In this document: positions 5,891 to 21,626 of the stretch, one piece after another | How positions within the stretch are numbered: the first letter of the stretch is position 1 | Layout: every line of letters starts with the position of its first letter | Virus record (IMG/VR): IMGVR_UViG_3300025093_000145 | Span: 1-21,626 of that record | DNA: 21,626 nt | Direction: 5' to 3' (one strand) | Source of the DNA: a virus | Notes under the pieces: model-generated | The model's database searches: none | What the model was told of the DNA's origin: nothing | What the model saw: only the letters and a program-made list of their open reading frames with translations | Translations under genes and position numbers: made by a program

Positions 5891-8800
5891 GCGGGCATAG
5901 ATCTCCTCGCGTCAATCGCGGGTGGCTGGTCGCCGTTTCCACCTCTCGACTTTCGTACTCGGTCCATCATTGCATATAACTCATCAGCTCCAGCATCAGA
6001 GCTTCCATCGCCCAGTCCAGATACCACATCCGCTGGAACAATAAACTCACCGGGGGACACCGCAACAGGCTGTTGATCCCCTATCATGCCGGGGACCGCG
6101 TCATCCATGCCACTGCCATTTCCATCAATCATCCCTTCGGTCTGGGCTTGGGGCACAACGCTCTTTAAGATCATGTCTCTCACCATCGCAAATACTTCAT
6201 TACCGTATTTCTTGGTGAAGGCGCTGACAATGGCGTCGGCATCCTCGGTGCGACCCAGTACGGCTTGGGCCAGAATCATTATCTCCTCTTCGCTAGGAGT
6301 CGCGCTAAACTGGTTATCAACTTCAGCGATACCCCCCGCTGGTGCGCGTACTTCGCCGAGCGGCGTCCTGAGCGCGACAGCGTCATCCCTTTTAGGGCGA
6401 GGCGCGCTCTTGGCTTCATCCGGAATGTCGGTTATGCCGCCCTCTTTTCTGAACGTGGGGGACTCGCCCTCCGGCATGCGGAATTGATACGACGCTATAT
6501 TGCCGTTATCCAAGAAATACATGCGGTCGCCAATCGTTACCTCTTGGCCACCCATCAGCTTGCGGTTCCCCATCATTTTGGCACGAATTTGTTCTGTGTC
6601 CGTCATTTGATCTGGGTTAATCCCAAACGGCATGCCCTGAGCCTCCCTGTATCGAGCTAGCTCCGCTTCTGAGATATTGCTAAACAAGCCGCGAGCCGGA
6701 TCATAAGTCATCCCCTGACCATACCTACCCTCCGCCTGCTGAAGCGCGGACATAAAATCCTCCATGCTCACATCTTGGCGAGAGCCATGCAAAAACTCCC
6801 GAAGGTCACTTATCCGGCTCCGCCGAGAATGCAACAAGGGGTCAATATCTTTGTATTGCGGAGCCCTAGCGTACTCACCTATGGCCGGGCGATAATCAAG
6901 CGCCGCCTGAACGGGGTCGACACCACCTTCACCGCCACCAGTGGTTCCTGTGGTTCCTGTGGTTCCTGTGGTTCCTGTGGTTCCTGTGGTTCCTGTGGTT
7001 CCTGTGGTTCCTGTGGTTCCTGTGGTTCCTGTGGTTCCTGTGGTTCCTGTGGTTCCTGTGGTTCCTGTGGTTCCATCACTGGAGGGGGGAGTGGCAGTAT
7101 CGCCCGGCAAATCCGCAACCCACTCCGGAGGAGAGGTAGGCATGTCCGTCCCCCTTCGGGTGGTGTAGTTCGCGGAAACTGTCTGCCCGCCATACAGCCT
7201 AACCCACCTGCCGCCCGCCTGCCCTATTGGGGCATCCCAGTACCAGCCTACATGCGGGCTTTCACCCGGCACAACGTCGGGCGGCTCCTCGCCCACATCA
7301 GAATCTGGCACCTCTGGCTCTTCAGGGGGGGGTTCGTCGGCTGGCGGCTCTTGGCCAAGGCCATAACTGGCAAGAGTGCGATAATACTCACGCAGTTGCG
7401 TTAAGTAATCTTCGCGATCCAGTATCGGGTCAAACGGGGCGCCCACCTGATCCGCATCTACGCCGAGCTTTGTCGGACGAAAAACTCTGGTTGGAATGTA
7501 TGGCGCAAGGGGATCGTCTTGAAAAGACTGGAACTCCGGCTCAAAGCCATATCGGTAATCAGTAGGCGCGCGCACCGCGTATTTTCCGCGAAGACCCGCC
7601 TGTATACCCACGGGATCAATGCCGGAGAGTCCCTGCCCGAGATAGCCAAATGTCGCCGGGTTGAATACACCCATGTCAACAAGATCTATCTGCTCTTCTC
7701 TTGGCATGAGACTTTCTCGCTCCTGTCGAGCCTGCTCGTACCGGTTGTAGTAGTCTTCTAGGAGGCCCTGATCATATTCCCCAAGAGCGCCTCTCCTTGC
7801 GCGAGCAAGCGCCGCCGCCTCTTCCTCAGTCGGGGTTACCTGAGGCGGTCGGGCTCTTATAAATTCATTGTCAGTGACAATGCCGTCATCATTAAGATCG
7901 TAGCCTTGTTCGATTGCATAATTTTGATTTGCAATCGCCTGCTCCCTTGTCATCCCTCTATCCATGAGGGCTTGTATTCTTTGCTCATACAGGGAGCTTT
8001 GCGACCCGCCCGTACCGCCCGTGCCACCAGATCCCGCGTTGGGGAAGAACGCCGCCTTAAACTCCTCAAACGTCATGTTGGCAACCGCCTGATTGCCAGC
8101 GGCCTTCAAGGCTTCAAAAATGCTTCTATAGTAATCCTCTCCAGTAACCGCTCCGCCTCTCCTCATAGAAGGCATTTGGCCCCCCTCTGCCGCATACATT
8201 CCCGGCAAGGCATAGCCTGCGGTACGCCTGCTCATCATGGATCGGTATGGGCTGGCGCCACCCATCAATCCGGGCTGTGCCGCTCGGTATCCGGACTGGA
8301 GGTCCGCATAGGACTCACCCCTCTTCTTCTCGGCCTCCTCCATTCTGGCTCTTTGTGCGCGCTCAAAATCCTCCTGCACGTCCATTTGCTCTAGCATGGA
8401 CTGCCCAGTGGAGGCGGCAACAAACTGTCCCGTGCCGCCCAGCCTTTGCATGCCGGCTTGAGCTATGTCTTCGGCTCTGCCGAAAACGGCATCACTCATG
8501 TTGGGGGTTCTTGCGGTGGGGGCAACCTGAGAAAGCGCCTTGGACATCTCAGGCGTTACTTCCCCCGCTCCGATGTCAGCCATACTGAAATCTATCTGAG
8601 AAGGCGGAGTATTTGGAACAAATCCCGGCATCATCTCTGGGGCGCCAATGTCAGCCATGCTAAAATCTACGCCGGGCGCCTCTTGCGCGATTGCTGTGCT
8701 GGCGTCTAGCCCCGCAGTGGCCGCGTCTGTGGCTCCGGTTGCTACGTCGGCGCCCGTGGTGGCCGCATCGGCAAGAGTCGTTGTCGTTTCTGCTCCAGAT

Positions 8801-14125: not shown

Positions 14126-16459
14126 TTATGCTCCTTTTAGTGCCGCTACTTCGGCTTTTAAGTCTTGAATCTCTTTAATCATCATTGGGACTAACTTGCT
14201 GTAATCAACGGCCCACATATCATCGTCAGTTTCACCTTGTGTTACAGCTTCAGGTGCAACGTCAACAAGTTCTTGTGCGACCATGCCGTAGGTCTGGTGT
14301 GATCCGTCAACCTTCCAATCAAACGAACGTACACGAACAGCGTCGATGTTACCTGCTGGTGCGTCTACGATGTTTTCTTTGAGGCGTTCGTCTGAAGATG
14401 TGTTGTAGGCTGTTGCAGATCCGCTTGTTGTTACAGACCCTACATTTCCGTTAGAGTTGTAAAGTAACCAGTGTCCAACTGATGCGGTGTTATTTCTAGC
14501 TGTTTTAAAATAACCAAAGTCGCCACGAAGCTCAATTCCCTCAGACCCATTTGAAACTGAACTCGTAGTCCCAACCAGCAAGTTGCCGCTGGAGGAGATA
14601 CGCATACGCTCGTACATCGTAGATGAGGTGCTTGTATAAAAAAGCATATCATTATCTGTGGCATAGTTAGTGTTACTAGAACTTGCAATCGCTACGCCAC
14701 GATTTTCATCAGTAGTGCAATGAAGCCTTATCATTGCTCCATGCCCAGTACCCGCCGCATTTTGAGCATTACCTACGTCCAAAACATTGGTTATGCTTGA
14801 TGATGCGGCAGAACGTACACTTAATTTTGCGCCAATGTCGGTAGTGCCAATGCCAACGTTGCCACTACTGTCGATACGCATACGTTCTGTGCCGCCTGTT
14901 GAAAAACGACCGAACGGACTGCCAGAGTTATAAAAACCCTGAATCCCAAAGTAATCATTATCACTTGCCGACCCAAAGTTTAGGGTAGCGTTATTGGCAT
15001 CTGGGGACGTTATTGTAATTCCGGTTGAGCCTGTGCTTTTTACAACCAAGTTGTCAGCAATAGCGGCTCCGTCTGATGTTGGCGCTGTGCTACCAATACC
15101 AACGTTGCCAGAGCTATCAATAATCATACTTTGGGTCAAAGAAACGGCTGAATCTGCGGCTCCTGTTACATCACGATAAAAGTAAGTTGCACCACCAGAA
15201 AACTGAATTAGACTAACAGGCACAGCATTAATTCGCTTATATCCTGAACCGTCCCAATAAGCGTTTGCGCCGACAATAGTCCCTACGTTATTGCCGCTTG
15301 CAAAAACCCCACCGCCATAAGTGTTTCCAAGAATCTGAAACGCGTTTTCACCGCTTCCCCATGCGCTTGGCGTTACCCCAAGACCTACGTTGCCGCTGGA
15401 ATCAATACGCATACGCTCTGCGTTGTTAGCATAAAACGCAACAGGGTCACTAGACGATGTACCAAACTGCAATATATTTGTAGATACTTGTAAAAACGAT
15501 GATGTTGTTGCGTTTGATAGCAAAAAGGTACTGTCGCCTTTAATTGTGCCGACAACATCAAGGGCTTGAGCAGGACTCGCAGTACCAATACCAACGTTGC
15601 CATCTTCCTGAACCCTAAATAACTCAGTTCCACCAGAAGTGCTTGTACGGTCTTTAGCAATTACAAAATCTTCACCTGTATTAGTGCCATCGCTATCAAT
15701 GTTTATAAATAGTGAAGCGGGTACATTAATAATTCCGTTGTGAGTTCCGTTATCGTCTAATTCTAAAGTACCGTTAAGGGCTGTTAATTTTGTCGCTGAC
15801 AAATTACCGGTTACTGTTATGTCGTTAGCAAATGTCACCGATTCATTAGTGGCAATCGTAATCGCAGTGGTTGTGGCGTTATCGTCGATGCCTGTGGAGG
15901 TGAACGTGGTGAAGGTTCCTGCGGCGGCGGAAGACCCGCCAATGGTAGTGCCGTCAATAGTACCGCCGTTGATGTCGGCAGTGGCTATAGTCGCGCCTGT
16001 CACCGTCAAGTCAACATTAACGTCAGTAACGGTCGCGCCCGTTCCAGCCCCGTCAAACTTCAGGGTGACATCTGCGCCGTTGGCAATCTCGAAGTCATTG
16101 GATGCGTTATAGGTGCCCTGAAAGACAATAATTGACCGGCTACCAGACAAGCTGTTGCGGATGTGAACAATCTTCTCGGCATCATTAGGGGTAAGCTGGA
16201 CATACGCTGTCGCGCCAAGGTCGCCGCCATCAACAAACTCAATAAACTTGTTGCGGCCATTAGACGCAGTGCCGTCAGTGATCGGTAAATCGTTGGGTGA
16301 GCCGGAGGTTCCCGCACTAGCGAGAGTGATTGAAACAATGCCGTTTACCGCAGTGTCAATCAGATCAAAGTTGGTATTGGTGGTGGTTCCCCATGTACCT
16401 GACTGCTCACCAGTAGCAATCTTCTCAATACCAAGATTTGTAGTGTATGTGCTAGGCAT
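14126..16459 (-). CDS. Tail fibre with C-terminal self-cleaving S74 chaperone domain, 777 aa
   Basis: An AAGAGGA ribosome-binding site precedes ATG 16459. The N-terminal 130 residues (MPSTYTTNLGIEKIATGEQS, then GTWGTTTNTNFDLID) form the conserved virion-attachment region of marine-phage fibres. The middle is Thr/Ser/Gly/Asn-rich beta structure with at least five copies of a motif like ERMRIDSSGNVGIGT, typical of trimeric fibre shafts. The C-terminus carries a peptidase S74 intramolecular chaperone: SDERLKENI at residues 689-697 has the catalytic Ser689 and Lys694 at the spacing seen in endosialidase chaperones, and later YGMVAQELVDVAPEAV and VDYSKLVPMMIKEIQDLKAE match the family's conserved end. 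Cleavage before Ser689 would free an 89-residue chaperone after trimer folding. Confidence 0.93.
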   Translation of the reverse strand: MPSTYTTNLGIEKIATGEQSGTWGTTTNTNFDLIDTAVNGIVSITLASAGTSGSPNDLPITDGTASNGRNKFIEFVDGGDLGATAYVQLTPNDAEKIVHIRNSLSGSRSIIVFQGTYNASNDFEIANGADVTLKFDGAGTGATVTDVNVDLTVTGATIATADINGGTIDGTTIGGSSAAAGTFTTFTSTGIDDNATTTAITIATNESVTFANDITVTGNLSATKLTALNGTLELDDNGTHNGIINVPASLFINIDSDGTNTGEDFVIAKDRTSTSGGTELFRVQEDGNVGIGTASPAQALDVVGTIKGDSTFLLSNATTSSFLQVSTNILQFGTSSSDPVAFYANNAERMRIDSSGNVGLGVTPSAWGSGENAFQILGNTYGGGVFASGNNVGTIVGANAYWDGSGYKRINAVPVSLIQFSGGATYFYRDVTGAADSAVSLTQSMIIDSSGNVGIGSTAPTSDGAAIADNLVVKSTGSTGITITSPDANNATLNFGSASDNDYFGIQGFYNSGSPFGRFSTGGTERMRIDSSGNVGIGTTDIGAKLSVRSAASSSITNVLDVGNAQNAAGTGHGAMIRLHCTTDENRGVAIASSSNTNYATDNDMLFYTSTSSTMYERMRISSSGNLLVGTTSSVSNGSEGIELRGDFGYFKTARNNTASVGHWLLYNSNGNVGSVTTSGSATAYNTSSDERLKENIVDAPAGNIDAVRVRSFDWKVDGSHQTYGMVAQELVDVAPEAVTQGETDDDMWAVDYSKLVPMMIKEIQDLKAEVAALKGA

Positions 16460-16472
16460 TCGTTAATCCTCT

Positions 16473-17174
16473 TTATGCCGCAATATCTTCATAGTTTGGC
16501 GTCTGCGACGGTGTTATTGCCGACCACCCCGGAGACTGAGACGGCGTCACGTTGACATAATTTGGCGTTTGATCCGGAACAATAACGCCCCAAACCAAGA
16601 CGGGTCCGACCTCTCCGGTTCCAGATACCCCCACAGGGTATACATTGGCCGGAGCAACAGTGGTAACCGACCCAACCGCACCCGTCCCAGAAACACCCGT
16701 GACAGGCACGCTGTTGACGGTCCTGACCGTAATGGAGCCTACCGCGCTTGTTGCCTCAAGCCCCGTAACCGCTACATTTGCAATGCCAGTTACGGTCACC
16801 GACCCCACTGCGCCGGTCGCCTCAAGCCCAGTGACGCTTGTGTTGGCATCGGCGGTGACAGTTACTGAACCCACCGCAGATGTGCCTGCAAGGCCGGTCA
16901 CTGCCACGTTCGCGTCGGCAATGACAGCTACTGAGCCTACCGCACCGGTTGCTTCAAGCCCGGTGACACTTGTGTTGGCGTCTGCCGTTACAGTGACGGT
17001 TCCTGCCGCCGCCGTCGCAGAAAGCCCTGTTACATTGACATTGGCCTCTGCTATTACTGTGACGGAGCCTACATTACCCGTAGCCCCCGCATTGGTAACA
17101 CTGCCCTCGCCCCAGCCAAGATCGCTCCACGCGCCTCGGCCCCATCCGGTTAAGGGGACGACGACATCGGTCAT
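16473..17174 (-). CDS. Repeat-containing tail protein with seven 22-residue units, 233 aa
   Basis: The N-terminus (PLTGWGRGAWSDLGWGEG) has Trp-Gly pairs that I recognise at the head of repeat-containing tail proteins in marine phages. Residues 36-189 are seven 22-residue repeats of the type GSVTVTADANVxVTGLEATGAV, predicted beta-strand pairs, with a partial eighth. The end has three 11-residue units (DQTPNYVNVTP, SQSPGWSAITP, SQTPNYEDIAA). Position between the 144-residue structural protein and the tail fibre supports a tail or fibre role. Start shares one base with the previous stop (TAATG). Confidence 0.83.
   Translation of the reverse strand: MTDVVVPLTGWGRGAWSDLGWGEGSVTNAGATGNVGSVTVIAEANVNVTGLSATAAAGTVTVTADANTSVTGLEATGAVGSVAVIADANVAVTGLAGTSAVGSVTVTADANTSVTGLEATGAVGSVTVTGIANVAVTGLEATSAVGSITVRTVNSVPVTGVSGTGAVGSVTTVAPANVYPVGVSGTGEVGPVLVWGVIVPDQTPNYVNVTPSQSPGWSAITPSQTPNYEDIAA
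16608..17069 (-). repeat. Seven 66-bp tandem units encoding 22-residue beta repeats
   Basis: Units begin with Gly at residues 36, 58, 80, 102, 124, 146 and 168, an exact 22-residue period. Units two and four are nearly identical (both include VTADANTSVTGLEATGA or close to it), while others differ more. This suggests internal duplication of larger blocks. Confidence 0.85.
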
Positions 17175-17608
17175 TACGCTATCCGAATAATTGCGTTACT
17201 GGCATCCGCAGTGGGGAAAACAATAGTGAAGTCGCCCGCTGTAGATGTCTTGTCAGCACCAAAATCTAAAACCACCACGCTGGGATCGCCCGCCGCTGTG
17301 TCGTTATAGATCAAAGCTCCGCGAGCAGTAACAGTAGCCGTGCTAAATGTAAGGTCAGCAAAGTCCGTGAACGCCGTTGTGCCGGAGGTGGTCGGATCTA
17401 CCCGAGTTAGAGTGCCACCGCCCGCACTATACCCCGTGCCGCTAACCTCGTTTGTCGCGGTATAGGCCGTGGTTGCCGCAGTAAAGCTGGCGTTGTTGTC
17501 ATACATTGCCAGCTTGAAGGTGCTACCGCCCGACAGCTTAAAGTTGTGTACACCCTCCATTAGCTCCTGCTTAAAGGAGGTACACATGTAGTTTCCGGTA
17601 AATGCCAT
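17174..17608 (-). CDS. Conserved phage structural protein, 144 aa
   Basis: The protein starts MAFTGNYMCTSFKQELMEGV, followed by HNFKLSGGSTFKLAMYDNNA and a series of Thr/Ala/Ser-rich beta strands, ending FTIVFPTADASNAIIRIA. I recognise this as a common structural protein in tail regions of marine and other environmental phages. No enzymatic motif is present. An AAAGGAGG-like sequence occurs inside the gene near its start but does not mark an alternative start. The upstream stop and this start form TAAATG. Confidence 0.82.
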   Translation of the reverse strand: MAFTGNYMCTSFKQELMEGVHNFKLSGGSTFKLAMYDNNASFTAATTAYTATNEVSGTGYSAGGGTLTRVDPTTSGTTAFTDFADLTFSTATVTARGALIYNDTAAGDPSVVVLDFGADKTSTAGDFTIVFPTADASNAIIRIA

Positions 17609-17887
17609 TTAAAGTCTCCTGATAGCTTCGGCTAGGTCTTTTTGCCCTGCATCAACCAGAGCGTTATAAATAGTGGTGCGATCACTGTTGATCGCCTCTT
17701 TCATGTAATAAAGCAAAACAGCGCGGATGCTCTTGCGATAAGACAAAGCCTGATCCCGCAAAGCCTGAGGGGCGGACTCCGACACGCTAATAATCTTATC
17801 GAGACACCTCTCCGCAACCTCTTCCGGAGTAAAGCCTCTATTACTGGTGGTTTGGACGCTAACAGTGCCTACGCTCAACTCCAGCAT
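17609..17887 (-). CDS. Small helical conserved phage protein, 92 aa
   Basis: After a short beta-like N-terminus (MLELSVGTVSVQTTSNRGFT) the protein is predicted helical: PEEVAERCLDKIISVSESAP, then ALRDQALSYRKSIRAVLLYY and a final helix DAGQKDLAEAIRRL. I recognise related small proteins next to the connector genes of marine phages, but know no function. It lies between the adaptor-like gene (TAATG overlap) and a structural gene, so a neck or connector role is possible. Confidence 0.78.
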   Translation of the reverse strand: MLELSVGTVSVQTTSNRGFTPEEVAERCLDKIISVSESAPQALRDQALSYRKSIRAVLLYYMKEAINSDRTTIYNALVDAGQKDLAEAIRRL

Positions 17888-18528
17888 TAGCTTCTAGGCT
17901 TCCTCACTGCGCCGCTACGGTAACTGTCCGTGGTGCTATAACCCTCGCCCAGTTCCTCCAGCCTTAATATGGCGTCTTCGTAGCGCTGAGCATATAACTG
18001 CATTAGGTCGGCATCCCCTTTGAGGTAGGTATACGCCTCAACAAGACAGCCATAAAGCAAAGTAGATTCGGCGTTGTCGCCAAGCCAGCTCGTTCCGGAG
18101 GCCGCGACCGTGATTGACTCCGGCTTGTGGAAGTAATGAAGCTCTACCGCGTAATTGCTGTCCGGGGTCGGCCCAATCAAAAAGTAAGTGTCGCTGAAGA
18201 TTGCGTAGCACTTTGGAGTGCCCGTAGTAGAAGATGACGGGTATGCCTGACGAACGAAGTTGACATCTTTAAAGAGCAGGTAGTCGTACCCAGAGTTGTC
18301 TATTGCAAGCGAGTACGGCGTCAAGAAATCTGGCGGCATTGCGAGATACTGGTTTCCGGAGGTCATGTTCGCCGTGACATTCTGCCTGAAGTCTGGCAAC
18401 TGACATCGCTTCAGTATCCTGTCTTCAGCCTGCGTAATGATCGTTGGCAGGTTGTTAACGAAGCTGGTTTCCGTTGACTCAACATAATCCTGAATCGCCT
18501 GCTTCAGCGTGGTATAGGTAAAAGCCAT
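17887..18528 (-). CDS. Head-tail adaptor-like protein (SU10-type), 213 aa
   Basis: The N-terminus MAFTYTTLKQAIQDYVESTE, then NLPTIITQAEDRILKRCQLP, is the typical opening of SU10-type phage adaptor proteins that sit under the portal. The middle contains MPPDFLTPYSLAID and the strand-rich FLIGPTPDSNYAVELHYFHK with the 'YxxKP' turn, followed by helices in the C-terminal part (LLYGCLVEAYTYLKGDADLM) that match the helical bundle of adaptors. The length of 213 residues is normal. It is coupled to its neighbours by a TGATG start/stop overlap. Confidence 0.8.
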   Translation of the reverse strand: MAFTYTTLKQAIQDYVESTETSFVNNLPTIITQAEDRILKRCQLPDFRQNVTANMTSGNQYLAMPPDFLTPYSLAIDNSGYDYLLFKDVNFVRQAYPSSSTTGTPKCYAIFSDTYFLIGPTPDSNYAVELHYFHKPESITVAASGTSWLGDNAESTLLYGCLVEAYTYLKGDADLMQLYAQRYEDAILRLEELGEGYSTTDSYRSGAVRKPRS

Positions 18529-18872
18529 CAGGATATCTCCACCGTGACGCGGCCTACTTGTCCAGCCATGTCGAGGCCAACAGTCCTACTACCAAGAGCA
18601 GTGTTGCCGCCGCCAACCGGATCAAAAGCAGACAAGGATCGGCTTTCATCAAGGCTATTGTCTGGCCTTGGGAACCTAAGCGCCTGAGGATCGCTTGCAT
18701 TAACATCTCCTAGCTTGAGCTGAGGCTGATCTTGATCAACCACGTCCCGACCAACCAGTAGGCCATTCCAGCGCCCATCTTCAATTTGTCTGACAAGGTC
18801 TCTGATCGGATACCGGAAACCCGTCCTGTCGCAAAACCCGAATGCGCGCTTCCCCTTGGCATAACTACTCAT
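18528..18872 (-). CDS. Conserved phage structural-region protein, 114 aa
   Basis: The N-terminal half (KGKRAFGFCDRTGFRYPIRD, then GRWNGLLVGRDVVDQDQPQL) contains the conserved CDRTGFRYP and RDVVDxDxPQ signatures that I recognise from a family found between connector genes in many marine phages. The rest is Asp/Ser/Gly-rich and ends with a strand RVTVEIS. A single Cys near a Lys/Arg-rich start hints at metal or nucleic-acid binding but only one Cys is conserved here. Start overlaps the upstream stop (ATGA). Confidence 0.8.
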   Translation of the reverse strand: MSSYAKGKRAFGFCDRTGFRYPIRDLVRQIEDGRWNGLLVGRDVVDQDQPQLKLGDVNASDPQALRFPRPDNSLDESRSLSAFDPVGGGNTALGSRTVGLDMAGQVGRVTVEIS

Positions 18873-19564
18873 AGGTCGTTATAGCCTCCGGGTGCCACAT
18901 ACAAAGACGCCTTTTCTCTTGCCGCGTCAGCCGCCAAGCTCCATTGCTCCTCATAAACCTGCTTTAGGGTTGGAGCTAGTTGTAGCGCCTCCGGCCTTTT
19001 ACTGGCAATTTGATATGCCAGCCCCGCAACCAGACAGGGAAGAAAGCGAGCCGGCACATCCATGTTGTTAGAAGCAGGGCTTCCGCTATCCTCAATGCGC
19101 TCCATGTAGTAGTACGCAAAGGTGTAGCTGGTTGTGGCGTCCGGCACTGGCCAGAAGTGCACAGTAATGCCCGTTGGCTTGCGCTCAACATAGTATTGCA
19201 AGGGGCGTCCCTGAGTTAGCTTGTTGGTCTGATGTGCATATTGGCTGACAGAGATTCTCTGCATTGTCAGGTCGGACTGCTTGGAGCTATCGCCTGCGTC
19301 CGTGCGGAGCAGTCCCTCTATAATGTCTAACTTGTCAGCACTAAGGTTGTATGATCCCGTCCCCGCAACAAGAGCCACCGTGGTGTCCCGTACCGTCCAG
19401 AGATTAAGGCCCCGGTTTTGCCACTCAAGCATGAGCAGATCAAGACTGCGGCGAGCAGTTTTGTAGTCATAGCCGCTTCGTAGCTCAAGGCCCGCACGCT
19501 CATACGCCTCTTCAATAATATCTGACAAGTCAAGAGTAAAGCCGGTCGTTCCGCTCGTAGCCAT
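18869..19564 (-). CDS. Connector / tail-tube-like structural protein, 231 aa
   Basis: The sequence opens with FTLDLSDIIEEAYERAGLEL and continues YKTARRSLDLLMLEWQNRGL with NLWTVRDTTVALVAGTGSYN, a conserved arrangement of helices followed by strands that I recognise in connector or tail-tube proteins of podovirus-like environmental phages. A region ITVHFWPVPDATTSYTFAYY with YME and the final helices ARFLPCLVAGLAYQIASKRP complete the domain. The resemblance to the adaptor downstream (strand block then helices) suggests related folds. It begins three bases from the last basic-protein stop (TAAATG). Confidence 0.8.
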   Translation of the reverse strand: MATSGTTGFTLDLSDIIEEAYERAGLELRSGYDYKTARRSLDLLMLEWQNRGLNLWTVRDTTVALVAGTGSYNLSADKLDIIEGLLRTDAGDSSKQSDLTMQRISVSQYAHQTNKLTQGRPLQYYVERKPTGITVHFWPVPDATTSYTFAYYYMERIEDSGSPASNNMDVPARFLPCLVAGLAYQIASKRPEALQLAPTLKQVYEEQWSLAADAAREKASLYVAPGGYNDL

Positions 19565-19837
19565 TTATACAACCCGCCCTCTGGTTCTTCCGCGAACAGC
19601 TATACCGTTCCTACACTTTGGTTTTGGTACGGTACCGCCATTTCTCTTGCTAAGTCCGGCCTCAGACAAGGCAATGGCAATAGCCTGCTTCTTGTCGGTC
19701 ACTTTCTTTTTTGATCCGCCGGACTTTAGCTTGCCGGCTTCAAACTCACGCATTACCTTGCTGACCTTGTCCTGCTTCTTTCTGGATCTCGGCGCGTTTT
19801 GGGTTTGCTTTGATGCCTGCGCCCTGCTAATCGCCAT
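19565..19837 (-). CDS. Small basic protein, DUF6496-like, 90 aa
   Basis: The core KVMREFEAGKLKSGGSKKKV, then TDKKQAIAIALSEAGLSKRN, is the pattern I associate with DUF6496 ('KVMxEFKxGKLxSxxGxxVTxRKQAIAIALSEA'). Lys and Arg make up about a quarter of the residues, with very few acidic ones, so the protein should be strongly basic. It is the last of four consecutive small basic genes. Nucleic-acid binding or packaging inside the capsid is a plausible inference but unproven. Confidence 0.85.
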   Translation of the reverse strand: MAISRAQASKQTQNAPRSRKKQDKVSKVMREFEAGKLKSGGSKKKVTDKKQAIAIALSEAGLSKRNGGTVPKPKCRNGIAVRGRTRGRVV

Positions 19838-19838
19838 G

Positions 19839-20153
19839 TCAGCTACCTTTCTTCCATTTCTTGGATTGAGACTTGGTCTTGCTGGGCGACCATTTAACCT
19901 TATCCGCCCAGTAGGCCGCAGACATCTTTCCCTTTTTTATGTTCTTGGCATGACGCGACTTAAACGCCTTGCGTTGACCAACCGTCTGATTGGTCTTGAC
20001 GCCCTGCTGGCCAAAGCGAATCACCTTTTCCTTGCCGCCTTCACACGCCTTTACGATGTGCGACTTTTTCGGATGATTTGGCGTCCGCTTTGGCTTGTTG
20101 CAGGACATTGCTTTTTTATCGACTCGACCACCTTTGCTGTAATACTGTCGCAT
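19839..20153 (-). CDS. Small basic conserved phage protein, 104 aa
   Basis: The segment CNKPKRTPNHPKKSHIVKAC with EGGKEKVIRFGQQGVKTNQT and the ending AKNIKKGKMSAAYWADKVKW are conserved signatures that I recognise from a phage family of about 75-105 residues in environmental phages. The final 15 residues are almost all Lys, Ser, Thr. Two cysteines flank the central HPKKSHIVKA segment, which could form a small metal- or disulfide-stabilised knuckle. It shares one base with the upstream stop (TAATG region). Function unknown. Confidence 0.83.
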   Translation of the reverse strand: MRQYYSKGGRVDKKAMSCNKPKRTPNHPKKSHIVKACEGGKEKVIRFGQQGVKTNQTVGQRKAFKSRHAKNIKKGKMSAAYWADKVKWSPSKTKSQSKKWKKGS

Positions 20154-20407
20154 TACTTCCTATGCCTCGCCGTTTTCTTGGCAACCTTCTTGGGTTGCTT
20201 GGAGTGCTGTTTGCCTTTCTTGGTGTCTGCACGCTTCTTCCGGGTAGTGGCGGCATACTCGCTAGACGACAAAGACTTAATGGCTTTTTCAGGCAAATAC
20301 CTTTCGCCCGTCGCTTTCGAGCCTTGGGTGCTCGGCTTGCCGGACTTTGTGCGCCACTTCTGCTTTGTCCACTTCTTGAGTGACTTTTGCGGTTTTTTGA
20401 GCGCCAT
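20153..20407 (-). CDS. Small basic protein, DUF5872-like, 84 aa
   Basis: I chose ATG 20407 (MALKKPQKSLKKWTKQKWRT), which shares one base with the upstream stop (TAATG); a longer in-frame start at 20476 would overlap the previous gene by 70 bases. The body TKSGKPSTQGSKATGERYLP, then EKAIKSLSSSEYAATTRKKR, matches what I recall of DUF5872: a Lys-rich sequence with 'RYLPxKAxxxLSxxExAATxxKK'. The C-terminus is again Lys/Arg-rich. Function unknown; grouping with three other basic proteins is its strongest contextual clue. Confidence 0.85.
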   Translation of the reverse strand: MALKKPQKSLKKWTKQKWRTKSGKPSTQGSKATGERYLPEKAIKSLSSSEYAATTRKKRADTKKGKQHSKQPKKVAKKTARHRK

Positions 20408-20610
20408 TAGTCCTTGTAGCCTCCGCCAGCCTCTTTGTACTGCTTTGCGAGCATTTGGGCCTTTCTTGCTGACCACTGCCCCGGCTTACCGCCTTTTCCC
20501 CCAGCTTTGATTTTGTTAAATAGCCGCTTCCGTAAAGAGGGCTTAGTGTAGTTTCCAGCTTCATTTACCTTCGACTTCGTTTTGCCGCCTTTTTTATAGT
20601 ACAGCCGCAT
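20407..20610 (-). CDS. Small basic conserved phage protein, 67 aa
   Basis: The sequence MRLYYKKGGKTKSKVNEAGN, then YTKPSLRKRLFNKIKAGGKG and QWSARKAQMLAKQYKEAGGG, is a small protein I recognise beside the DUF5872-like gene in many marine phages. It is very basic with several aromatic residues, and its beginning resembles the start of the 104-residue protein two genes on (MRQYYSKGGR against MRLYYKKGGK). This hints at a shared N-terminal element. Start shares one base with the upstream stop (TAATG). Confidence 0.85.
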   Translation of the reverse strand: MRLYYKKGGKTKSKVNEAGNYTKPSLRKRLFNKIKAGGKGGKPGQWSARKAQMLAKQYKEAGGGYKD

Positions 20611-21017
20611 TAGCCGTAGCTCTTCTTCACCTTCATGACGATGCTGTATGAATCACCGCTAGAGTGCCCCACCGTCGTAAAGTTGATATCGCCAGTCTTG
20701 CCGCTACCGGCGTTATTAGGTATGCCTACGAAATCAGAAAAATCCAATGAGTCTGAATAGTCAGCAGGAAGCTCCCACGCTAAAACATCCGTCGTCGCAT
20801 CAAACAAGATCTCAACGCCCATGCCGATGGTCGAATACCAAATGCACTCAATCTGAACGCTAGTGCAGGCGGCATTGTCAGCAGGATTTTTTGAGAGGGT
20901 AGATACGTCGATCTTGGTCACAGCAGATTCGCCTGTGCCGTCGCTGACGTTGGTGAACGCAAAGATTGCGGTGCGGGGGCCGTCTTCTATTGTCTGACTG
21001 GTAACTGTGTCAGCCAT
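20610..21017 (-). CDS. Small structural protein, 135 aa
   Basis: The start is ATG 21017, five bases after an ideal GGAGG Shine-Dalgarno. A start at 21029 (adding MEDK) lies upstream of that site and is unlikely. The sequence MADTVTSQTIEDGPRTAIFA, then FTNVSDGTGESAVTKIDVST, and the region WELPADYSDSLDFSDFVGIP with NNAGSGKTGDINFTTVGHSS match a structural-protein family I know from marine phages, where it lies shortly after the capsid gene. The fold should be all-beta. Capsid decoration or a tail role are both possible. It lies directly behind a terminator-like hairpin whose T-run precedes the Shine-Dalgarno. Confidence 0.82.
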   Translation of the reverse strand: MADTVTSQTIEDGPRTAIFAFTNVSDGTGESAVTKIDVSTLSKNPADNAACTSVQIECIWYSTIGMGVEILFDATTDVLAWELPADYSDSLDFSDFVGIPNNAGSGKTGDINFTTVGHSSGDSYSIVMKVKKSYG

Positions 21018-21026
21018 TTTGTCCTC

Positions 21027-21048
21027 CAAAAGGGGGGCTTACGCCCCC
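21027..21048 (-). terminator. Rho-independent terminator or attenuator with GUAA loop
   Basis: On the minus strand a six-pair stem GGGGGC/GCCCCC closes the tetraloop GTAA, a GNRA-type loop, and is followed by CTTTTG. The T-run is short, so readthrough is likely and the element may act as an attenuator. It lies between two structural genes. Confidence 0.75.
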
Positions 21049-21055
21049 GAGCTGA

Positions 21056-21520
21056 TTAAGAAAGGTTTCTGTTTTGGAGGTACAGAACGGTAACCGTTGC
21101 GGCACCAGCCGTAGCGGCAGTGCCTGTCTGGTTGTAGGTAACGGTTACATCGACATCCGTCGTACCAATGTCAACCAAGTTACCAAGCTGGCTCACGTCA
21201 GATGTGGCAAGCAATCTTGCCGCAGAGCTAACATCTAGCGCGTCAGCGTACTTGTCAGCAGTAGTGCCGTCACCAATGTCAAACGTGTTAGTGGTGGCCG
21301 CGTCAAAAGCGGTAGTGACATCCACGCTGACCTGCCAAAGCTGGCTGTTCGCAGGAACAGTGGCAACAACCGTCTCGGTGCCATCGTCGCCAAAAACGAC
21401 GTTGGTGCTCTGCGCCATAAGCACAAAGCCGACGTTAGCCTTGTCTGTGCCGACAGTGGTGCCGGTGGTGTCTTTGATGGTTCCGGCCTTAATAGGCCCA
21501 GAAAAAGTAGTAGTACCCAT
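21056..21520 (-). CDS. Small structural protein next to capsid region, 154 aa
   Basis: The ATG at 21520 is preceded by AGGAG seven bases upstream. The protein starts MGTTTFSGPIKAGTIKDTTG and continues with beta-rich segments (NVGFVLMAQSTNVVFGDDGT, SQLWQVSVDVTTAFDAATTN, DVDVTVTYNQTGTAATAGAA) and ends VLYLQNRNLS. The opening 'TTFSGPIxxGTI' and the 'NVGxVxMAQ' strand are what I recall from a structural-protein family that follows the major capsid gene in marine phages. It sits between two terminators, so it can be expressed at a level different from its neighbours. The exact location in the virion is unknown. Confidence 0.83.
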   Translation of the reverse strand: MGTTTFSGPIKAGTIKDTTGTTVGTDKANVGFVLMAQSTNVVFGDDGTETVVATVPANSQLWQVSVDVTTAFDAATTNTFDIGDGTTADKYADALDVSSAARLLATSDVSQLGNLVDIGTTDVDVTVTYNQTGTAATAGAATVTVLYLQNRNLS

Positions 21521-21543
21521 GTGAGTCTCCTGTCTGGGTGAGT

Positions 21544-21568
21544 CTAATGTTCCATGTGGAACAATTAG
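21544..21568. promoter_or_regulatory. Strong dyad, one mismatch from a parS (ParB-binding) site
   Basis: The core TGTTCCATGTGGAACA at 21548-21563 has two perfect seven-base arms around a TG centre. CTAAT and ATTAG extend the symmetry on both sides with one bulged base. Against the Pseudomonas-type parS TGTTCCACGTGGAACA the match is 15 of 16 on the minus strand, differing only at the centre. It lies between a terminator and a start codon, so a transcription-factor operator is the other main reading. Confidence 0.6.
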
Positions 21569-21576
21569 TCAGGAAT

Positions 21577-21596
21577 AAAAGGGGGCCGAAGCCCCC
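21577..21596 (-). terminator. Rho-independent terminator with UUCG loop
   Basis: The minus strand reads GGGGGC-TTCG-GCCCCC followed by TTTTATT. The stem is six GC pairs and the C(UUCG)G loop is an exceptionally stable type. It starts six bases after the stop codons of the gene at the right edge, where a terminator for a highly expressed gene would be expected. Confidence 0.88.
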
Positions 21597-21602
21597 GTGC
21601 TA

Positions 21603-21626
21603 TTAGGAAGTTCCGGGCGAGCCGTA
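21603..21626 (-). CDS. 3' end of an upstream gene, possibly the major capsid protein
   Basis: Only the last seven codons, reading YGSPGTS, and the stop TAA are in the window, followed directly by a second stop TAG and the UUCG-loop terminator. A tandem stop with a terminator right after it supports this as a true gene end. In related marine phages the gene at this position, before the 'TTFSGPI' protein, is usually the major capsid protein. Seven residues cannot confirm this. Confidence 0.45.
   Translation of the reverse strand, partial: YGSPGTS

Follow-up and report, generated by a model that had tools for sequence, protein, structure and literature searches.

In a group of phages, small basic proteins whose genes lie between those of the major capsid protein (MCP) and a head-tail adaptor carry two shared N-terminal segments, hereafter tag A and tag B. 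Both tags recur on otherwise unrelated basic sequences, nearly always between these two genes, and tag A copies the N-terminus of the MCP itself. We propose that the tags are capsid-loading signals for basic internal head proteins that would work like the capsid targeting sequence of phage T4, a reading to which we give a probability of roughly 0.68. Many phages have small basic late proteins that are filed as unknown, and a head-loading sequence signal would give them a testable role.

The window, the whole stretch of DNA analysed, is a 21,626-bp virus fragment in which ORFs were picked by simple rules, with no gene finder. The cassette consists of four minus-strand ORFs encoding, in this order, proteins of 67, 84, 104, and 90 residues, between a gene for a 139-aa protein and a head-tail adaptor gene. 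The features are as follows.

21603-21626, minus strand: end of the MCP gene, last codons and stop (YGSPGTS*); the body of the MCP lies outside the window, and the whole MCP is found in contig L008
21056-21520, minus strand: 154-aa protein (cluster c20) between the MCP and the cassette
20610-21029, minus strand: 135-139-aa protein (cluster c12), directly upstream of the cassette, without a family match
20407-20610, minus strand: 67-aa basic protein, P0004 family, phrog_17747 (E 4e-34), net charge +16
20581-20610, minus strand: tag B of the 67-aa protein, MRLYYKKGGK, a start shared with the 104-aa protein
20153-20407, minus strand: 84-aa basic protein, P0003 family, phrog_14910 (E 3e-37), net charge +25, without tag A or B
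19839-20153, minus strand: 104-aa basic protein, P0002 family, phrog_7595 (E 3e-29), net charge +27
20124-20153, minus strand: tag B of the 104-aa protein, MRQYYSKGGR, a start shared with the 67-aa protein
19565-19837, minus strand: 90-aa basic protein, DUF6496 (PF20106, E 2e-10), net charge +20
19802-19837, minus strand: tag A at the start of the 90-aa protein, MAISRAQASKQT, which copies the N-terminal MCP sequence MAISRAQMLKEL of L008
18869-19564, minus strand: SU10-type head-tail adaptor (PF24175, E 8e-14), directly downstream of the cassette
17887-18528, minus strand: second SU10-type adaptor (PF24175, E 2.5e-24)

Positions 16143-21626 of the window are 99.93% identical over 5484 bp to L008, which runs beyond the window edge. 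Since this near-identical contig continues into a whole MCP gene, the final 24 bases of the window can be assigned to the end of an MCP gene. The gene order is the MCP, two small genes, the four basic genes, and the adaptor (PF24175), and the sequence-only reading had correctly placed the cassette between capsid-region and connector genes. Its translational linkage of the four genes is plausible, because adjacent cassette genes overlap by one base or lie 0-1 base apart, as they also do toward both flanking genes. For the 84-aa protein, we chose the shorter start over a 107-aa call (GTG at 20476), since the longer call overlaps the previous gene and homologues start with MALKK[SP]Q. The two SU10-type adaptor genes of the window are different from each other and separated by one gene. 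A 1086-aa ORF contains, at window 6879-7193, a long Gly-Thr-Thr repeat run that is open in several frames.

The ORFs and their charges confirm four consecutive small, highly basic proteins. Their pI values are 10.5-11.7, and their charge per residue ranges from +0.22 to +0.30, while the next most basic of the 26 picked minus-strand ORFs of at least 60 residues has +0.03. Nucleic-acid binding of the four proteins is likely from this charge. The 90-aa protein belongs to DUF6496, its profile match scoring 41.2 bits against a curated cut-off of 24, and it alone of the four falls into a named Pfam family. DUF5872, which had been named together with DUF6496, does not hold for the window, as none of the four window proteins matches this Pfam profile (PF19197) at E ≤ 1; a protein of a relative does match it, and that protein carries tag B. 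The PHROGs profiles phrog_17747, phrog_14910, and phrog_7595 match over most of the 67-, 84-, and 104-aa proteins, respectively, and the 104-aa protein also has a weak match to phrog_220 (minor head protein and DNA pilot, E 3e-4). Scans of viral contigs confirmed relatives in 67 loci for the 90-aa protein and in at least 594 loci for each of the other three. The dN/dS against relatives is 0.01-0.06, a value that rests on the 84- and 104-aa proteins, as the 67-aa protein has saturated synonymous sites and the 90-aa protein was left out because of unaligned indels. Because of these relatives and the low dN/dS of the 84- and 104-aa proteins, the four ORFs are real genes, and they belong to large conserved phage families.

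The 84- and 67-aa families occur together in 214 loci, out of 222 and 215 loci, respectively, among the first 303 loci, a sample that was fetched using the queries of these two families themselves. Fusions join the 84- and 104-aa families in three loci, the 67- and 84-aa families in seven, and the 84-aa family and DUF6496 in two. A 320-aa protein (L185:5559-6518 and L186:1055-2014) combines a region of the 84-aa family with a DUF6496-like stretch and an extended C-terminal region, and its gene lies downstream of terminase and portal genes; its C-terminal motif SDSIPARLSDGEF presumably resembles those of phage virion proteins. Isolates with some of the families include HMO-2011-type phages, SIO1, and cyanophages, in whose genomes the families are located elsewhere, near lysis, terminase, and portal genes in the HMO-2011-type phages. 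The HMO-2011 genome has a gene annotated as methanesulfonate monooxygenase (L002:6465-7547) between its 67-aa-family and 84-aa-family genes. The AlphaFold2 model of the 104-aa protein has two strands and two helices at its core (mean pLDDT 79.6) and no match in the PDB at E ≤ 0.001 (best E 1.8). Likewise, searches for solved structures gave nothing useful with phmmer for the 90- and 84-aa proteins or with profiles for the MCP and the 104-aa family. Some members of the 104-aa family (alignment A3) read RARHNCDT...ARYWSCKAW, an arrangement of Cys and His like that of a metal site; these cysteines are absent from the branch of the window.

The MCP (cluster c3) matches phrog_371 (E 4.6e-23) and Phage_capsid_4 (PF25209, E 4e-12). 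It has the HK97 fold: its model (pLDDT 84.6) finds a best PDB match at E 2e-12 and 379 matches at E ≤ 0.001, with encapsulins among the HK97-fold shells matched. Since residues 5-26 are modelled as a helix with moderate confidence, tag A would correspond to the first half of the N-terminal helix of the MCP. Other MCP lineages start with MAINRAS.., MAMNRAQF.., MAISRAN.., or MAINRAD.. among the matches listed in two further scans. Upstream of the MCP lie a GroES-like gene and an acidic, scaffold-like gene, the latter name being a guess from the sequence of an acidic protein without a named family match. The GroES-like co-chaperonin gene is found a few genes before the MCP throughout the phage group (for example, L160:1480-1854, Pfam Cpn10 E 1e-5), and all 13 phage records that were fetched (L686-L698) annotate it as such at the corresponding position.

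With tag A (MAISRAQ...), the 90-aa protein repeats the MCP N-terminus over its first 12 residues. The motif begins 150 of 5009 picked ORFs, and 141 of the 150 encode the MCP or members of the basic families (72 MCP, 51 DUF6496, 11 P0004, and 7 P0003, with 9 others). After an internal methionine, the tag A string is found in only 2 of 16,339 cases. We also scanned public viral contigs blindly for any ATG start encoding MAI[ST]RAQM (at least 120 stretches). The viral-contig scans list matches in part, so their loci are samples. Among the matches listed, 117 new loci gave 118 ORFs: 98 MCP, 2 P0004, and 18 others. Seventeen of these 18 are Lys/Arg-rich proteins of 28-106 residues, and one is a 480-aa protein. 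Some of the basic proteins scarcely exceed the tag and a poly-lysine stretch. For the 20 non-MCP ORFs among the matches listed, the MCP is encoded on the same piece in 10 cases and the adaptor in 8 more.

The resemblance is to the start of the local MCP. At a score of at least 22, it was detected at 123 of 26,119 same-strand starts, versus 0 of 9604 opposite-strand starts and 24 of 130,595 with shuffled tags. In uncultured relatives with other MCP starts, small basic proteins carry the local version, which pairs MAINRGNIA of the MCP with MAINRGNIG of the cargo, MAINRADIA with MPISRSDIP, and MAMNRAQFA with MINRSSFSS. Among 285 loci with both MCP and adaptor genes, 118 tag-A genes lie between the two and 10 outside.

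Tag A covaries with the MCP of the same locus. For this analysis, the regular expression left positions 7 and 8 free, and loci were fetched only through the MCP; of 131 distinct matching ORFs (identical ORFs are collapsed wherever counts are given as distinct), 41 non-basic ones were dropped before the count and 90 were kept. Agreement at MCP positions 7 and 8 was 29/43 and 28/43, against permutation means of 21.5 and 20.1, and none of 5000 permutations reached the observed agreement at either position. When the set was thinned to MCP bodies below 75% identity, agreement was 9/10 and 8/10, versus 4.5 and 5.2 expected, and 4 and 36 of 5000 permutations, respectively, came up to these values. 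At position 4, covariation fades on thinning, and 816 of 5000 permutations were as high at the strictest level. Cargo starts that track the local MCP sequence are direct evolutionary evidence for a common binding site. The earlier suggestion that the proteins belong in the head thus gains much support from tag A, at the level of sequence comparison. The roles proposed with it, namely condensing DNA, protecting it after ejection, or binding nucleic acids of the host, are candidate functions.

Tag B, MRxYYxxGG[KR], is found on the 67- and 104-aa proteins. Their similar starts, already noticed in the sequence-only reading, are not due to chance, as tag B recurs across related phages. A scan for it gave 112 ORFs in 103 new loci among the matches listed, which comprise 62 of an unnamed ICxKGK family, 21 of the 104-aa family, 13 DUF5872-like, 9 DUF6321-like, and 6 of the 67-aa family, the remaining one being a spurious ORF of 11 residues. 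These families were sorted by short regular expressions, with one DUF5872 and one DUF6321 example confirmed by Pfam. Head-module genes are present in 102 of the 103 loci among the matches listed. In the 285 loci with MCP and adaptor genes, 176 tag-B genes lie between the two and 1 outside; at least one tagged gene, A or B, occurs in 167 of the 285 loci, and in 86 of 180 once loci fetched by a tag pattern are removed. Tag-B genes are frequently two per locus, while tag-A proteins never exceed one (324 loci). No MCP-like start resembling tag B was seen in the loci examined.

Tagged cargo does not accompany every related capsid. Thirteen phage records were fetched from the 22 catalogued records with a related MCP, and in all 13 a tag-A basic protein is missing from the 4.5 kb downstream of the MCP (best score 12, threshold 22). 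Seven of them, HTVC023P, HTVC027P, Pag-Yong1, DSL-LC04, CRP-901, CRP-902, and 023Pt_psg01, have an R-containing MCP start. Since this start is present in seven records and tag-A cargo in none, the MCP N-terminus serves the MCP itself. A tag-A protein is also absent at a score of at least 20 from 40 of 75 contig loci with at least 6 kb downstream, and the MNR lineage has one in only 1 of 21 loci. Judging from these sequences, only some members of the lineage have tagged cargo, as an accessory. In HMO-2011, whose coat is P22-type, three of the families are present with neither tag, and this single case fits a tag that is tied to one capsid type.

We found no virion proteomics of any carrier, and the accessible portions of PMC9860041, PMC8515928, and PMC12753301 do not report these proteins. 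The transcriptome of HTVC027P, a phage studied in this literature, is uninformative here, because HTVC027P lacks a tag-A protein despite its related MCP. The tag strings MAISRAQ, ISRAQM, YYKSGGK, and YYKKGGK did not turn up in print in the open PMC library, where we likewise found no paper on DUF6496, DUF6321, or DUF7208 and nothing usable on a start shared by an MCP and an internal protein.

Conservation, charge, gene position, tag sharing, and covariation are established by the sequence comparisons above, and we infer a virion location and DNA binding for the four proteins. The cassette would encode small cationic internal head proteins. During assembly, tag A may bind the partner of the MCP N-terminal helix, either the scaffold or neighbouring shell subunits, and would thereby compete for or join the site of the MCP N-terminus on the scaffold or shell, so that the tagged polycation is built into the procapsid. 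Its cationic tail may later lie against the packaged DNA, neutralising or ordering it, or leave the head together with it. Tag B would act as another loading signal. The packaging of the 84-aa protein is the weakest part of the proposal, because it has neither tag; this protein is provisionally grouped with the internal head proteins only by its constant company in the cassette. A more far-reaching version, which is speculative and which we consider somewhat doubtful, is that uncultured aquatic phages use an exchangeable code for capsid loading. Tag A would mimic the N-terminal helix of the shell and plant a short protamine-like polycation on the inner head wall, and tag B would load a second set with up to five unrelated basic domains; the tag would co-evolve with the shell while payloads are freely exchanged.

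The alternative that survives best, though we think it improbable, is that the tagged protein is an assembly regulator or decoy. It would compete with the MCP N-terminus for the scaffold or for the phage GroES-like chaperonin encoded upstream, its basic tail would grip the acidic scaffold, and it would control shell growth with no need to stay in the virion. This is consistent with the GroES-like gene and the acidic gene, scaffold-like by our guess, before the MCP, and with the number of tag-A proteins per locus: among 324 loci with a readable MCP start, 119 have one (score ≥ 20) and none has two. Against this stand the five basic families that carry tag B within the MCP-adaptor interval, together with tagged proteins of which some have just 25-30 residues and a lysine tail; both suit DNA-facing cargo better than a folding client. 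It is rather less probable still that the proteins are late, host-directed nucleic-acid-binding proteins that are not packaged and whose common N-termini promote stability or translation. Proteins that are small, basic, late, and of unknown role would suit such a function, as would the DUF6496 domain within an 812-aa protein with a NUDIX domain, but one would expect a signal for stability or translation neither to follow the phage's own MCP position by position nor to be confined to the MCP-adaptor interval. That 812-aa ORF (L034:5083-7518) matches NUDIX at E 5.5e-22 and DUF6496 at E 5.4e-8 in Pfam, and its remainder has no Pfam match.

Codon usage bears on whether the tags are shared as peptides or as DNA. 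In 24 distinct same-locus pairs of MCP and cargo, 130 of 144 residues are equal and just 24 of these 130 share the codon, where codon usage alone predicts 19-50% shared codons, varying by residue. Many of the pairs shown from the window's lineage use serine codons from different blocks, and the upstream sequences differ. Since so few equal residues share a codon, tag A is a peptide identity and not a recent DNA identity, and a recent DNA duplication is disfavoured in this lineage. The codon difference is weaker in the MCP-fetched set, where 82 of 176 equal residues have the same codon, near the expectation from codon bias, and tag-B pairs share the codon at 84 of 150 equal residues, from which recent copying appears possible for tag B. 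That the shared starts are functionless DNA-level copies of a convenient gene start, spread by recombination, might draw on these last two counts and is nevertheless very improbable, given the codons and upstream sequences of the window's lineage and the confinement of the tags to basic proteins.

Encapsulins use short peptides to load cargo into an HK97-fold shell, and these cargo peptides are usually C-terminal and are not known to copy the shell protein. Loading by tag A would resemble this, as the MCP here also has the HK97 fold, whereas tag A is N-terminal and copies the shell protein. DUF6496, DUF6321, DUF5872, phrog_7595, phrog_14910, and phrog_17747 are comparable as the payload domains of the cassette and its relatives; the search outputs for these families give no function and no description of the tags. 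In phage P1, a 30-residue N-terminal segment of DarB directs the protein or a reporter into the capsid, according to the available part of the source (PMC9024508), and an N-terminal segment as a capsid-entry signal is what we propose for the tags. DarB differs in being a 250-kDa anti-restriction protein and not a short polycation, and that part of the source mentions no sequence link to the P1 coat (PMC9024508).

The closest parallel is T4. As described in the accessible part of PMC9026906, its internal proteins IPI, IPII, and IPIII are basic, present in ~360 copies each, and made with N-terminal targeting propeptides of 10-19 residues, the first 10 of which are enough for packaging; relatives of T4 carry other basic proteins with similar starts. 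The capsid targeting sequence shows affinity for core proteins, and the protease gp21 removes it (PMC9026906). Both systems, as far as that source describes T4, have small basic head-region proteins with a common short N-terminal segment, and here such a segment is common to several basic proteins of one phage, with tag B on the 67- and 104-aa proteins and tag A on the 90-aa protein and the MCP. Unlike in T4, tag A copies the MCP itself and covaries with it, and there is no conserved glutamate (6/81 at MCP position 11). No protease family match was found among the four upstream head-module proteins scanned (clusters c14, c10, c8, and c5), and we do not file the system as a T4-type member, which would call for removal of the tag by a prohead protease. 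If the loading reading is true, the tags represent a second targeting system beside that of T4 and give a lead to what the MCP N-terminus binds as the head assembles.
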